64,000 nucleotides of DNA, taken from positions 62,001-126,000 of the forward strand of contig NZ_FNGG01000005.1 in the NCBI RefSeq assembly GCF_900102915.1. Reading direction: 5' to 3'. Below the pieces are notes generated by a model that was given only the letters and a program-made list of their open reading frames with translations, ran no database searches and had not been told where the DNA came from. The position numbers were made by a program, and so were the translations under genes. Source of the stretch: Salinimicrobium catena. GTDB lineage: Bacteria; Bacteroidota; Bacteroidia; Flavobacteriales; Flavobacteriaceae. Shown here piece by piece: positions 37,055 through 62,157 of this stretch (its first letter is position 1; each line of letters starts with the position of its first letter).

Positions 37055-38256
37055 CCGGCATCAACGTAATCCTGCAGATATTTAAATCTTTCAGTTAACT
37101 TTCCGTCTTTGGTCATTCTTGCTCGTTCCAGGATCCCGTCCTTGTCCCCGTCAAAGAATGCCGGAAGCACATTTTTCAGGAACATGTCACCAAAACCTTC
37201 ACTTGCGTCCTTAGGCAATTCGCAAGGCAGGTTATCCACAGCCATAACGGCGATAGCGCTTTTCTCGCTAAAATCCACTTCCCCGTCACTCTCAGCACTG
37301 TAACCATAAAAAGGTTCAGCGATGGTAGACGGCCTTATGGTGCTGGCAATCGGTCCGGCGATATCGCAGGAGATATCTGCCACATATTTAATTTTAAAGG
37401 CCGGGGACTTCATATCTTCGGCCGTGTAGAAAACCGGAGCGCCTTCTCCGTAAAAATGCCCTGCGATGAAAAAATCGCTGGCTTTTGCAAACCTTAAAAA
37501 GTCGGATTCATAATTTTCAGGATGGGTGTAAAAATCCTGGGCTGAACCTTCTTTTCCGTCCTTACGCTTGTTATAATCAAGCACATCGATATGGCAGTAG
37601 ACCGGCTCCTGGAAACTGCCTTCCAGGTACTCCTCTACTCCAACCTGTTTTATCTTTAGATGATCCAGGATCTCTTTGGCTCCATGCGCCACTTTTCCGC
37701 TTCCGGTAAGAACGATCTTGAGCGGCGGCAGGCTGATCTTATCGAGCTCTGCCAGCATGGCATTGAGATCTGGTAGGGACTCCGCTTTTGGCAGGGCAAA
37801 AATGTCATTTTTAAGGCCTATACCTCTAATTCCGTTATAGGCTCCTACCAATCCGGCATACCTTCCAAAGCCAATGAGTCGGCCGCCGGTCTCGTTCACG
37901 ATCACCTCGTGGTCATACAGCTCAATGTTGTTCTTAAGGATCTCCCGCAGCAGGTCCCGGTTATAGGGCTGTTTCTTTATGGTATGCGAAAAGAAAAAAT
38001 ATTTCTTATTCGGAATAAGGGCCGGGATAGGAACTTCCTTCACCCCCAGCATCACGTCGCAATCGGAAACATCTTCGGAAACCTCGAAGCCCGCATCGCG
38101 GTACTCCTGGTCTGAAAATATACGGATGTCTGAACTTTCTACTTTAAAACTTGCCTCGGGAAACTTTTCTACGGCTTCTTTCAATTTTTGGGGAGAAAAT
38201 ACCACTCTTCTGTCGGGTGGGGTTTTTCGCTCTTTGATGAGGGCAAATTTTATCAT
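37048..38256 (-). CDS. NAD(P)-dependent oxidoreductase of the saccharopine/alanine dehydrogenase group
   Basis: A 402-residue enzyme beginning IKFALIKERKTPPDRRVVFSP, the alanine dehydrogenase/transhydrogenase N-terminal domain with its substrate Arg/Lys. A middle GFGRYAGLVGAYNGIRG is followed by the dinucleotide fold LKIVLTGSGKVAHGAKEILDHL. YVADISCDIAGPIASTIRPSTIAEPFYGY resembles lysine-forming saccharopine dehydrogenase (fungal LYS1 type). True substrate in bacteria is uncertain. It is convergent with the MpaB gene and ends seven bases inside it. Confidence 0.83.
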   Translation of the reverse strand: MIKFALIKERKTPPDRRVVFSPQKLKEAVEKFPEASFKVESSDIRIFSDQEYRDAGFEVSEDVSDCDVMLGVKEVPIPALIPNKKYFFFSHTIKKQPYNRDLLREILKNNIELYDHEVIVNETGGRLIGFGRYAGLVGAYNGIRGIGLKNDIFALPKAESLPDLNAMLAELDKISLPPLKIVLTGSGKVAHGAKEILDHLKIKQVGVEEYLEGSFQEPVYCHIDVLDYNKRKDGKEGSAQDFYTHPENYESDFLRFAKASDFFIAGHFYGEGAPVFYTAEDMKSPAFKIKYVADISCDIAGPIASTIRPSTIAEPFYGYSAESDGEVDFSEKSAIAVMAVDNLPCELPKDASEGFGDMFLKNVLPAFFDGDKDGILERARMTKDGKLTERFKYLQDYVDAGQ

Positions 38257-38313
38257 ATTTGGGTATGGATTTTGAATAATACTGAGTGAGTCTCAAAGAT
38301 AGGAATTTAATAC

Positions 38314-38321
38314 TATCTTTG
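38314..38321 (+). promoter_or_regulatory. -7 box (TATCTTTG) upstream of the tmRNA leader
   Basis: An exact TAnnTTTG match. The transcript would begin at about 38326, roughly 180 bases before mature tmRNA, and would include the structured segment that follows. No strong TTG at -33 is visible. Confidence 0.5.
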
Positions 38322-38325
38322 CACT

Positions 38326-38460
38326 GCGGCAGGGATTGAAGCGGGTAGCTTTTTGTGAGGAAACGAACAAAAACTATGAGCGGAAAGCCCGGTGCACTGA
38401 AGCGGGAGCGAAGGTGTAGCCGCCCGAATAATCCTCCTACGCCAAGGCTTCGGAGGACGA
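38326..38460 (+). ncRNA. Candidate structured RNA or tmRNA precursor leader
   Basis: Non-coding and folded. TAG-C-TTTTTGT (38346-38356) pairs with ACAAAAA-CTA (38367-38376), with one bulge. GCAC at 38321-38324 can pair with GTGC at 38392-38395 to close the domain. TCCTCC (38432-38437) pairs with GGAGGA (38452-38457) around an inner GCC/GGC. A promoter box lies directly upstream. The sequence GGAAAGCCCGGTGC inside is reminiscent of recurrent Bacteroidota intergenic elements. It may be a separate small RNA or the 5' leader of pre-tmRNA. Confidence 0.4.
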
Positions 38461-38506
38461 GATTGGCATAATTAATGCGATAATAGAAGTAAGTTCTTTA
38501 CATAAT

Positions 38507-38903
38507 GGGGTCGACTTGGTTTTGACAGCGAGTCAAATTGAGTTGTAAGCACGTCGAGCGCTGGGATATAGCTCGTAAATCTCATATTTCAGACTTTTTT
38601 AAACGGCGAGAATAACTACGCCTTGGCTGCGTAACCGAATCATAGTAGGTTACTCTTAGTCCCTGCAAGGCAGGGAGCCAAGATGTCTCGCGGGAGCCTT
38701 GATTTACGGCGCCCGCACCAGAGGCACCGGTAAAGTAAATATAGAAACCGCAGGGTCCTGATGCGGTTTTGAAACTTAAGCGGGAATACGTGCAAGATTG
38801 GTGGTTTTCGGCCGGTCTTGCATCGACAACCAAACGAAAACTAAGCGTGTAGAAAGCAGCTGAATTGCTTGTTTGGACGGCGGTTCGAACCCGCCCGACT
38901 CCA
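38507..38903 (+). ncRNA. ssrA: Transfer-messenger RNA (tmRNA)
   Basis: The 5' end GGGGTCGACTTGGTTTTGAC pairs with the 3' end CGACTCC plus discriminator A as the tRNA-like acceptor, and the T arm is GGCGGTTCGAACCCGCC. The tag frame at 38605-38634 reads GGC GAG AAT AAC TAC GCC TTG GCT GCG TAA, giving GENNYALAA, the usual Flavobacteria degradation tag. CCA is not encoded (ACC is followed by T). It rescues stalled ribosomes with SmpB. Its 3' end is followed at once by the repeat stack described below. Confidence 0.97.
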
Positions 38904-38905
38904 CC

Positions 38906-39310
38906 TTCGCTCGCCGAAGCTCAGACATGAGCGAGGGCGAGCTTTTTTTTGCCATCCTTTTCTTATTTTTTATTTATTCTCCTTTAAGTGGCGAGCTACG
39001 GTGGACACAGTCCACTCCATTCATCTATGAAATAAGCCCAACATCTTTCGCTCGCCAAAGCTCAGACATCTCGAATACGAGCTTTTTTATTTAATTCATT
39101 TTCCATCAACTTATCCACCGCTCTAATTGGCGAGCTACAGTGGACACAACCCACTTCATTCATCAATGAAATAAATAAACATCTTCGCTCACCGAAGCTC
39201 GGACATGAGCAAAGACTAGCTATTTTATTGCAATTCTTTTCCTATATTTATTTATTCTCCTTTAAGTGGCGAGCTTCGGTAGACAAAGTCCACTTCAATT
39301 TTTTCTTCAA
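38906..39310 (+). repeat. Tandem decayed cassettes of about 139 bp downstream of tmRNA
   Basis: Tail boxes (TTCGCTCGCCGAAGCTC followed by GAGC and a T-run) start at 38906, 39047 and 39184. Lead boxes (GTGGCGAGCTACGGTGGACA then GTCCACTTC) start at 38988, 39127 and 39266, a spacing of exactly 139 bp. In the first two units the lead box is followed by ATG AAA TAA (39027 and 39166) and then the next tail box, as if an internal gene had been deleted. In the third unit the lead box is followed by an intact GIY-YIG gene at 39311. The lead-box end GTCCACTTC resembles the tmRNA 3' end CTCCACCTTC. Confidence 0.8.
38908..38950 (+). terminator. tmRNA terminator, also the first tail box of the repeat stack
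   Basis: GCTCGCC and GGCGAGC form an outer stem, with inner GCTC-AGACAT-GAGC, followed by eight T. This hairpin recurs in decayed form at 39047 and 39184, so it is also part of the repeat unit. Confidence 0.8.
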
Positions 39311-39553
39311 ATGGAAACATGGACAGTCTATTTATTGAAATGCTCAAATAATTCTGTTTACGTTGGATGCACTTCAAATCTTGAACAGAGAATAAAAGAA
39401 CATAATAGTGGAAAAGTAAAATCTACACAGTACAGAATTCCTGTTTCTGTGACTACCAAAATCACCTTTAATGATAAATACAAAGCATACAATTTTGAAA
39501 AATACCTCAAAACGGGATCAGGAAGAGCTTTTTTAAATAAACGATTACTATAA
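39311..39553 (+). CDS. GIY-YIG nuclease domain protein 1 (tmRNA-linked)
   Basis: An 80-residue, single-domain GIY-YIG protein. METWTVYLLKCSNNSVYVGCTSNLEQRIKEHNSG contains the GIY (TVY) and YIG (YVG) strands and the catalytic Arg helix. FEKYLKTGSGRAFLNKRLL has the metal-binding Glu. Compact bacterial relatives include UPF0213/YhbQ. Composition is more AT-rich than neighbours. The ATG lies directly after lead box 3; the frame is open back to 39266, but that segment is repeat DNA. It may be a selfish nuclease gene that uses the tmRNA 3' end as its site (inference). Confidence 0.85.
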   Translation: METWTVYLLKCSNNSVYVGCTSNLEQRIKEHNSGKVKSTQYRIPVSVTTKITFNDKYKAYNFEKYLKTGSGRAFLNKRLL

Positions 39554-39558
39554 ACTAA

Positions 39559-39661
39559 CTTCCCGAAGCTTTTGGTTTTCAAAAGCGAAGGAGGGCTTTT
39601 TATTTGAATTTATTTCCAACATAACGAATCGTGCGAGGGCTTCAATGGACACATCCACTTC
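39559..39661 (+). repeat. Fourth, more decayed tail and lead boxes
   Basis: After the first GIY-YIG stop, a tail-like CTTCCCGAAGCTTTT ... GGAGGGCTTTTTA hairpin (39559-39602) is followed by a lead-like GTGCGAGGGCTTCAATGGACACATCCACTTC region (39631-39661). The second GIY-YIG gene starts 58 bases later, so the cassette order repeats. Confidence 0.65.
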
Positions 39662-39719
39662 TTCTTTACTCACAAATTCTAAATCTTTCCTATTTTCATT
39701 TACATCAATTTGATCGATT

Positions 39720-40061
39720 ATGGAATTACCTTATGCCGTTTACATCCTGAAATGCTCGACCGGACAATATTATATCGGCTTTACAGAAGATATTCAGAAA
39801 AGGCTAAAGAAGCACCAAAAAGGAGAAGTACATTTTACAAAGGATAAATTGCCTGTAGAATTGATTCATCTTTCACCGTTCCCCGACAAGAAAAAGGCCT
39901 GCGATTTTGAACGATACCTCAAGACAGGATCAGGAGCAGCCTTCCACCAGAAAAGATTGCTTAAAAAAAGCCCGGCACTGGCCGGGCTTTTGATCTCAGA
40001 ATATTTTCTTACTTCTTTATTTCTGCCGGAGTTTTCATGGTTTCATTCACCTGGTCCTTGA
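39720..40061 (+). CDS. GIY-YIG nuclease domain protein 2 (tmRNA-linked)
   Basis: A 113-residue frame. Residues 1-80 form the domain: LPYAVYILKCSTGQYYIGFTEDIQKRLKKHQKG (AVY/YIG strands, catalytic Arg) and DFERYLKTGSGAAFHQKRLL (Glu). The last 30 residues (KKSPALAGLLISEY...) are translated from the terminator of the convergent peptidase gene and from the antisense of its 3' end. The original stop seems lost, or the real protein is shorter. It shares the KTGSGxAF...KRLL end with copy 1, so the two are close paralogues. Confidence 0.8.
   Translation: MELPYAVYILKCSTGQYYIGFTEDIQKRLKKHQKGEVHFTKDKLPVELIHLSPFPDKKKACDFERYLKTGSGAAFHQKRLLKKSPALAGLLISEYFLTSLFLPEFSWFHSPGP
39963..39992 (-). terminator. Terminator of the M16 peptidase operon
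   Basis: AGCCCGGC-ACTG-GCCGGGCT is a perfect 8-bp stem, followed on the minus strand by seven T. It lies inside the tail of the second GIY-YIG frame. Confidence 0.9.
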
Positions 40062-61858: not shown

Positions 61859-62157
61859 ATGAAACTGTTTTACGTTTATATCGTGGAATGCTCAGATAAA
61901 TCCTATTACACAGGATTCACTTCCAATCTGGACAAGCGCATTGTGGAACATAATGTTGGAACTCATGATAATGCCTATACATTGAAACGGAGGCCGGTTA
62001 TTCTAAAATGGACCGAGCAATTCACAGATCTAAATCCAGCCATTGCAGTTGAAAAGCAGATCAAAGGCTGGAGTCACAAAAAGAAAAGGCACTTATAGAA
62101 GGAAAATGGGAGGATCTAGTGGAATTTTCCAAGAACTTCAGGAATAGAAATAGCTAG
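61859..62157 (+). pseudogene. GIY-YIG nuclease 3, frameshifted
   Basis: The first frame encodes MKLFYVYIVECSDKSYYTGF, then TSNLDKRIVEHN and AVEKQIKGWSHKKKRHL, stopping at TAG (62096-62098). Relatives continue after the KKK with ALIEG.W..L...SK. That ending (ALIEGKWEDLVEFSKNF) is present in the next frame from 62089 to TAG at 62155-62157. A one-base loss in the A-rich run AAAAAGAAAAGG (62078-62089) explains it. The nuclease core is intact, so a shortened product could still be made. Confidence 0.75.

Follow-up and report, generated by a model that had tools for sequence, protein, structure and literature searches.

A stack of hairpin units with small GIY-YIG nuclease genes behind the tmRNA gene of Salinimicrobium catena, a candidate selfish element of RNA-gene 3′ ends

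INTRODUCTION

Judging from the excerpts of the literature used here, the described system that comes nearest to the locus reported below is SegB of T4-like phages. SegB is a free-standing phage GIY-YIG enzyme that is enriched near tRNAs and drives tRNA-segment amplification, with microhomology between the tRNA 5′ region and the segB 3′ region (PMC13096335, PMC2988022). I-TevI, according to the same kind of excerpt, binds an upstream operator that resembles its target (PMC2988022). CPR rRNA genes are described as carrying GIY-YIG inserts that match no intron model (PMC11270868), and CGTC REP repeats are said to be without a dedicated transposase (PMC3733652).

Here, we analyze a stack of small units behind ssrA in 64,000 nucleotides of S. 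catena DNA (contig NZ_FNGG01000005.1, positions 62,001 to 126,000; this whole stretch is called the window, and positions count from its first letter). As with SegB, the GIY-YIG enzymes concerned are encoded outside introns and beside tRNA genes of many isotypes. SegB is phage-borne, however, and neither placement exactly at tRNA 3′ ends nor covarying boxes form part of its description in these excerpts. Furthermore, unlike SegB as described there, the window-type element has gene-less copies, and the protein of one relative (L138) found one weak match in 50,697 phage records. A phage origin is rejected on this one protein.

The other systems share single traits with the stack. Like REP/RAYT and CGTC-tagged REPs, it has short palindromic units, some beside a nuclease gene and others without one (PMC3733652), but it differs from REP/RAYT, to the extent that the excerpts describe it, in having no tag, no transposase, few copies per genome (four tail matches), and a tie to RNA 3′ ends. 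By eye, none of the four window units carries a GTAG/CGTC tag. The CPR inserts are likewise GIY-YIG genes at RNA genes with no intron model matched, whereas they lie inside rRNA genes, are sparse, and have poorly conserved sites; a tail/lead anatomy is absent from the excerpts on them. I-TevI, in the account used here, is also a GIY-YIG enzyme with an upstream sequence resembling its target, but it is intron-encoded and has a separate DNA-binding domain. The best sequence relatives with solved structures, from UPF0213 (1zg2 and 1ywl), are listed as hypothetical proteins.

Among the best matches listed from the open-access literature, we found no description of GIY-YIG elements at bacterial tmRNA/tRNA 3′ ends. 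We file the ssrA stack as a variant of free-standing GIY-YIG selfish elements, undescribed so far in that literature. Our preferred reading, to which we give a probability of roughly two in three, is that the stack consists of selfish hairpin elements specific to RNA-gene 3′ ends and spread by a GIY-YIG nuclease, of which cleavage and homing are the parts that we infer.

RESULTS AND DISCUSSION

Four tail-lead units stand downstream of ssrA in the window, and units 3 and 4 contain GIY-YIG genes. The parts are as follows:

38507 to 38905, + strand: ssrA (tmRNA), the host RNA gene (ARAGORN; Rfam RF00023, 139.5 bits)
38900 to 38904, + strand: TCCAC, the ssrA 3′ end, left stem strand of the element
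38905 to 38951, + strand: tail box 1, a probable terminator made up of a T-run and a hairpin that has a 3x3 internal loop (folding z −3.5)
38990 to 39015, + strand: lead box 1, GGCGAGC-TAC-GGTGGAC-aca-GTCCAC, pairing 13 of 13 with the RNA end and tail start (L041)
39046 to 39094, + strand: tail box 2, of a gene-less unit
39129 to 39155, + strand: lead box 2
39183 to 39229, + strand: tail box 3
39268 to 39294, + strand: lead box 3
39311 to 39553, + strand: GIY-YIG gene 1, 80 amino acids (Pfam PF01541, 52.5 bits)
39559 to 39603, + strand: tail box 4, left end shortened
39635 to 39658, + strand: lead box 4
39720 to 40061, + strand: GIY-YIG gene 2, frame of 113 amino acids (Pfam PF01541, 55.9 bits)

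An earlier reading of the letters alone (the sequence-only reading) had put the boxes in the same places and had assigned a GIY-YIG gene to two units, and both scores indeed lie far above the Pfam cut-off of 22.6 bits. It had bounded the stack at 38903-39720; the stack does lie there, but gene 2 only begins where that interval ends. Its description of one repeated unit holds for units 1 to 3, which are mutually alike, but not for unit 4, which is of another type; nor are the two genes sisters. Among eleven units compared, unit 4 aligns best with ssrA-locus units of Aequorivita (L081) and Salinimicrobium (L083). By eye, the frame of gene 2 overruns the usual family end and enters a terminator-like sequence of the neighbour; most of the relatives inspected stop near residue 81.

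Tail box 1 opens with CTTCGCTCGCCGAAGC, immediately after the TCCAC of ssrA. As DNA, it forms a hairpin of −13.1 kcal/mol (z −3.5), while folding is weak for tail 4 (z −1.2) and for lead 1 (z −1.7). A strict terminator scan, which does not score the main tail stems with their internal loop, scored only an overlapping stem at 38936-38953 in tail 1. Across 38250-40020, a pattern scan returned 2 terminator-like sites against 1.9 expected and 5 promoter-like sites against 3.3 expected, no excess. On the 5′ side of ssrA, an RNA-like match to Flavo-1 occurs at 38324-38398 (39.1 bits; gathering score 42). Just 5′ of the gene, at about 38433-38462, there is by eye a hairpin, TCCTCC-TAC-GCC-AA-GGC-TTC-GGAGGA, with the same 3x3 internal-loop pattern as the element's.

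No transposase, integrase, or intron was found at the element in Pfam searches of its flanking and inner frames or in Rfam, in agreement with the sequence-only reading. The four flanking frames match AlaDH/PNT-like, MPAB/Lcp, and two M16 peptidases; the six small frames inside the element match no family; and no integrase appears in either set. Across the element's GIY-YIG frames and the six other small frames, there is no HUH or tyrosine transposase, and other Pfam families are absent. No Rfam intron reaches its gathering score in the window, nor E ≤ 5 in 38250-39800. A group I or group II intron is ruled out by this lack of a match at the locus.

Both window proteins belong to the GIY-YIG nuclease superfamily, with PF01541 above cut-off. 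Two tyrosines, an arginine, a histidine, and a glutamate are the catalytic residues of GIY-YIG enzymes. Y5, Y15, R25, H29, and E61 are invariant in the 17 rows of a wider profile (A2), as are the matching residues in the four rows of profile A1, which comprises four relatives. Pfam finds the GIY-YIG domain alone, at residues 4-71 of 80, which makes a separate DNA-binding module unlikely. The best relatives of solved structure are 1zg2 (E 3.1e-14) and 1ywl (E 8.7e-8), and the structure-specific nuclease Slx1 is a weak match among such relatives. Curated libraries, searched with four proteins each, gave weak or partial matches only: group I intron endonuclease and UvrC in NCBIfam (both below cut-off); PDC-S14, UzuA, and HEase in PADLOC; and endonuclease and homing endonuclease families in PHROGs. 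The window genome has ten GIY-YIG matches. Two are the stack genes, five are further small frames with no tRNA/tmRNA within 1.5 kb, and three lie inside long frames (632, 460, and 499 amino acids).

Genes of this kind stand behind RNA genes. Among 80 named loci obtained with profile A1 (the best 80 of 137), 57 have a same-strand tmRNA or tRNA gene less than 900 bp upstream (median 180), 10 run into the end of their contig in under 700 bp, and for 13 ARAGORN gives no RNA gene. By eye, 11 of these 13 show RNA 3′-end-like sequence directly before the tail, and the other two are unreadable at that place. In a genome search of 77 loci (two repeats removed) that overlaps the named set, 34 of 39 loci scoring at least 76 stand behind an RNA gene, against 6 of 38 below 76, a cut chosen after inspection of the table. 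By our own estimate, which is not a computed value, a random gene would be so placed in <1% of cases.

The host RNAs are tmRNA and the tRNAs for Ser, Ala, Val, Pro, Met, and Asp, with Thr once, where the adjoining end belongs to a second RNA. The host organisms include Bacteroidota, candidate-phyla bacteria, and Bdellovibrionota, and among the named ones are Yanofskybacteria, Daviesbacteria, Parcubacteria, and one Halobacteriovoraceae bacterium. At E ≤ 1e-18, profile A2 has matches in 50 of 395 Bacteroidota genomes.

Lead boxes often copy the end of their own host RNA. They do so in 44 of 82 loci, whereas 2000 permutations averaged 22.6 and never exceeded 31; this figure and the pairing count given below are guides, since the permutations and shuffles keep neither phylogeny nor exact dinucleotide content. 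The copied word is TCCAC on tmRNA/Ala ends (33 of 51 loci), CCCAC on Val/Met ends (4 of 8), CCGAC on Pro ends (2 of 2), and TCCGC on Ser ends (3 of 14, one of which, L102, is false by eye). Among the 31 loci whose RNA ends differently from TCCAC, 11 have their own copy and none a TCCAC copy; the 51 TCCAC loci occasionally matched other words (TCCGC 4, ACCGC 3, and CCCAC 2). A copy is missing or unrecognised in 38 of the 82 loci, and most tRNA-Ser loci of the wider phylum are without one. The test left out duplicates, L181 (a repeat listing of window gene 2), 23 named loci with no ARAGORN gene at <900 bp, and loci below score 76, except L209 and L051. Three of its loci are doubtful (L187, L203, and L206), and RNA-end trimming gave odd end-words for 7.

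In many loci, the lead also pairs with the host RNA end. In 39 of 82 loci, a segment further downstream is complementary to the RNA end plus tail start at 10 or more of 13 positions, where shuffling gives an expectation of 1.2. By eye, 34 of these loci use the lead for the pairing, and the other five (L131, L134, L138, L149, and L195) pair with something else. The pairing surrounds a symmetric 3x3 loop, usually TTC or TAC, and stem 2 covaries (GCCCTCC/GGAGGGC, GCTCGCC/GGCGAGC, ACCC/GGGT, and GTTC/GAAC). The shortest case, L107, is a clear hairpin by folding (z −3.7) and was missed in the pairing test through the region cut. An earlier, stricter hairpin test found 30 of 57 loci and is superseded by the copy and pairing tests. 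Beyond the resemblance between lead and tmRNA 3′ end to which the sequence-only reading pointed, the lead thus contains a second strand, which is complementary to the RNA end and tail start.

The boxes are not common intergenic DNA, and the evidence against chance is a family-wide scan. Within the host genome, the tail pattern with at most one mismatch has 4 matches against 3 for a reversed control, so this looser pattern alone shows no excess in one genome; three of the 4, including both exact ones, are the window stack. Across 149 family genomes, the tail pattern with four RNA-end bases included has 10 exact matches, in 8 genomes, and the control has 0. All 10 lie at RNA 3′ ends: five at intact ssrA, one at tRNA-Ser (G126), two at tRNA-Ala of an rrn spacer (G018 and G106), and two at displaced tmRNA ends, both judged by eye, namely one downstream of intact ssrA (G103) and one ssrA-like (G042). 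Much as the sequence-only reading had proposed, this supports a small, selfish-looking unit that has specialised in the 3′ ends of tmRNA and tRNA genes and is positioned so as to leave the RNA gene whole.

From these features, we suggest the following mechanism. Each unit begins immediately after the RNA gene, and its opening hairpin and T-run could act as that gene's terminator, so that the host gene would stay functional. Next comes the lead box, seen as a copy of the RNA gene's last bases together with a strand complementary to the RNA end and tail start; autonomous units would then add the nuclease gene of ~80 residues. The nuclease, which has little beyond the GIY-YIG catalytic domain, may recognise the hairpin of RNA end and lead, two stems around the 3x3 internal loop, or alternatively the matching empty RNA end. 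It would cut or nick there, and repair would copy the element to an RNA gene's 3′ end. A new unit would land beside the RNA gene, with older units shifted downstream. By the precedent of I-TevI, the lead box may double as the enzyme's own operator. In this account, the location, anatomy, covariation, patchiness, gene-less copies, purifying selection, and presence of two lineages at one site come from the sequences themselves, while the terminator role, the cut, the path of repair, the order in which units arrived, and the selfishness are inferred.

Plain free-standing homing is the alternative that survives best, although we consider it unlikely. Here, the nuclease would cut an empty RNA-gene 3′ end as duplex, double-strand-break repair would use the RNA gene as homology arm, the lead would be an operator mimicking the homing site, and the hairpins would be terminators only. 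Precedents in the excerpted literature are SegB of T4-like phages, a GIY-YIG homing endonuclease that is free-standing and associated with tRNA genes, and the I-TevI operator, which lies just upstream of its gene and resembles the homing site. The lead, too, precedes its gene and covaries with the target. Reading 30 loci by eye revealed no conserved right end behind the gene, which counts against our preferred reading and fits one-sided repair. However, such homing leaves unexplained both the gene-less tail-lead units and the covarying second stem that tail start and lead form around the symmetric internal loop, and its enzyme probably has no separate DNA-binding module. To judge from the covarying hairpin and the gene-less units, recognition involves the structure of the DNA (or RNA). 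Pairing and gene-less copies fit a hairpin-based mobile element no worse than they fit plain homing.

The selfish hairpin reading is consistent with a patchy distribution. In place of one fixed locus, many RNA genes are occupied; the search of Flavobacteriaceae that the sequence-only reading had proposed found the element at tRNA genes and absent from some relatives, other phyla are occupied as well, and both occupied and empty sites exist, in comparisons between species only. The window's genus has 12 genomes, 10 of them with complete ssrA. A tail and a GIY-YIG gene lie within 1.5 kb of ssrA in two of the 10, the window's own among them, and one of these two loci is identical over 1,062 bp to the Salinimicrobium nanhaiense locus. 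Neither tail nor GIY-YIG gene occurs within 1.5 kb of ssrA in the other eight; four of these (L154, L155, L157, and L159) have a tyrosine integrase gene close behind ssrA (domains Phage_integrase, Phage_int_SAM_5, and Arm-DNA-bind_5) and so are not clean empty sites, as an island-displaced element could be missed there. In these four, the ssrA 3′ end is an island site too. A cleaner occupied/empty pair is the rrn-spacer tRNA-Ala of another genus, where a gene-less unit is present in G018 and G551 and the congeners G557 and G552 are empty; these loci share a common downstream flank and have no GIY-YIG frame.

The nuclease genes are under purifying selection (median dN/dS 0.09 in 67 overlapping pairs; pN<pS in 155 of 155). 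Together with the low copy number, this could also mean a host function. It is improbable, in our judgment, that the stack is a host-serving module in which terminator and nuclease aid tmRNA/tRNA processing, quality control, or dosage, even though the exact fit to RNA 3′ ends, the terminator-like tail, and the selection itself would suit it. The eight genus genomes without the element near ssrA speak against such a module, as does the lack of any A1 match (E ≤ 0.001) in 50 of 149 family genomes. Furthermore, 30 family ssrA loci hold a full gene in two and a broken gene in one, L051 is a broken copy with an in-frame stop, different RNA genes are occupied, and two lineages are stacked at one site. 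Debris of integrase islands, with ssrA/tRNA 3′ ends as attachment sites and the boxes as att scars, is very unlikely: a tyrosine integrase gene is close behind ssrA in 4 of the 10 genus genomes and displaced ssrA 3′ ends are frequent in related loci, but the same tail-lead-GIY arrangement, with its covariation, is met again at many RNA genes of different phyla, and the four flanking and six inner frames of the window element include no integrase.

At least two lineages have reached the window site, since its two genes are not sisters. A single clade for them is rejected (p-AU 0.0006, for a pair chosen after the first tree was seen). Gene 2 groups with Salinimicrobium/Gillisia ssrA elements (98/97). 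Gene 1 groups with tRNA-Val/Ala elements in a quick tree (SH-aLRT 95), its nearest relatives being tRNA-Val-associated, and in a careful tree belongs to a broader set of eight (81/86) that includes tRNA-Val and Ala elements and some tmRNA ones; its closest kin are not firmly fixed. Duplication of one cassette is rejected as the whole story, as the stack holds at least two lineages. Some stacks do look like plain tandem amplification, for example L133, with four near-identical 472-bp gene units in tandem and a lone tail. Host-RNA changes number 23 on a tree with few columns and many open forks, compared with a shuffled mean of 42.8 (none of 200 shuffles was as low). For the most part, elements therefore stay with one kind of RNA gene, yet they switch repeatedly.

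We put forward more tentatively, at somewhat less than even odds, a new class of bacterial mobile element. It would consist of hairpin units whose left arm is supplied by the host RNA gene. A structure-specific GIY-YIG nuclease would move these units both in cis and in trans, and lead-box covariation would redirect them among tmRNA and the tRNAs for Ala, Val, Met, Pro, and Ser. A sister class would enter tRNA anticodon loops and restore the tRNA, and a link to CGTC-type REP repeats is possible. If the selfish reading holds, a recurrent, small, unexplained bacterial GIY-YIG gene would be a selfish element specialised in several of the cell's most conserved genes. Its target would be predicted by a simple rule, in which the RNA end is both copied and complemented, and mobility would be directly testable. 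Odd terminators and pseudo-3′ ends behind ssrA/tRNA genes would be explained, and hairpin repeats with no known transposase would gain a candidate enzyme class.

Loci of the sister class (L053, L054, L059, L060, L208, and L227), read by eye, have a GIY-YIG gene between a 5′-partial tRNA copy and a complete tRNA. The partial copy has an inset hairpin and in several loci ends near the anticodon loop; the 5′ end of the complete tRNA overlaps or adjoins the stop of the GIY-YIG gene. In L059 and L208, a direct repeat takes in the tRNA 5′ flank. The arrangement suggests that the anticodon loops of tRNAs were invaded and the target duplicated.

A second small module occurs at ssrA 3′ ends, seen by eye in L022, L072, L074, L080, L092, L095, L097, L099, L106, and L153. 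It has a terminator between complementary arms, or the right half alone, and a TTTGCAGGAC-like sequence; several loci repeat a copy of the ssrA 3′ end.

The other small GIY-YIG genes of the window genome are L001, L002, L003, L005, and L006 (the last at about 61859-62098 of the window), some of them near REP-like palindromic sequences. At 17 such loci of this and other genomes, the density of REP-like motifs of our own choosing is 1.03 near versus 0.40 per kb far; the same count gives 0.36 versus 0.14 at 7 ssrA-type loci. That these other genes sit in REP-like repeats is a suggestive observation only.
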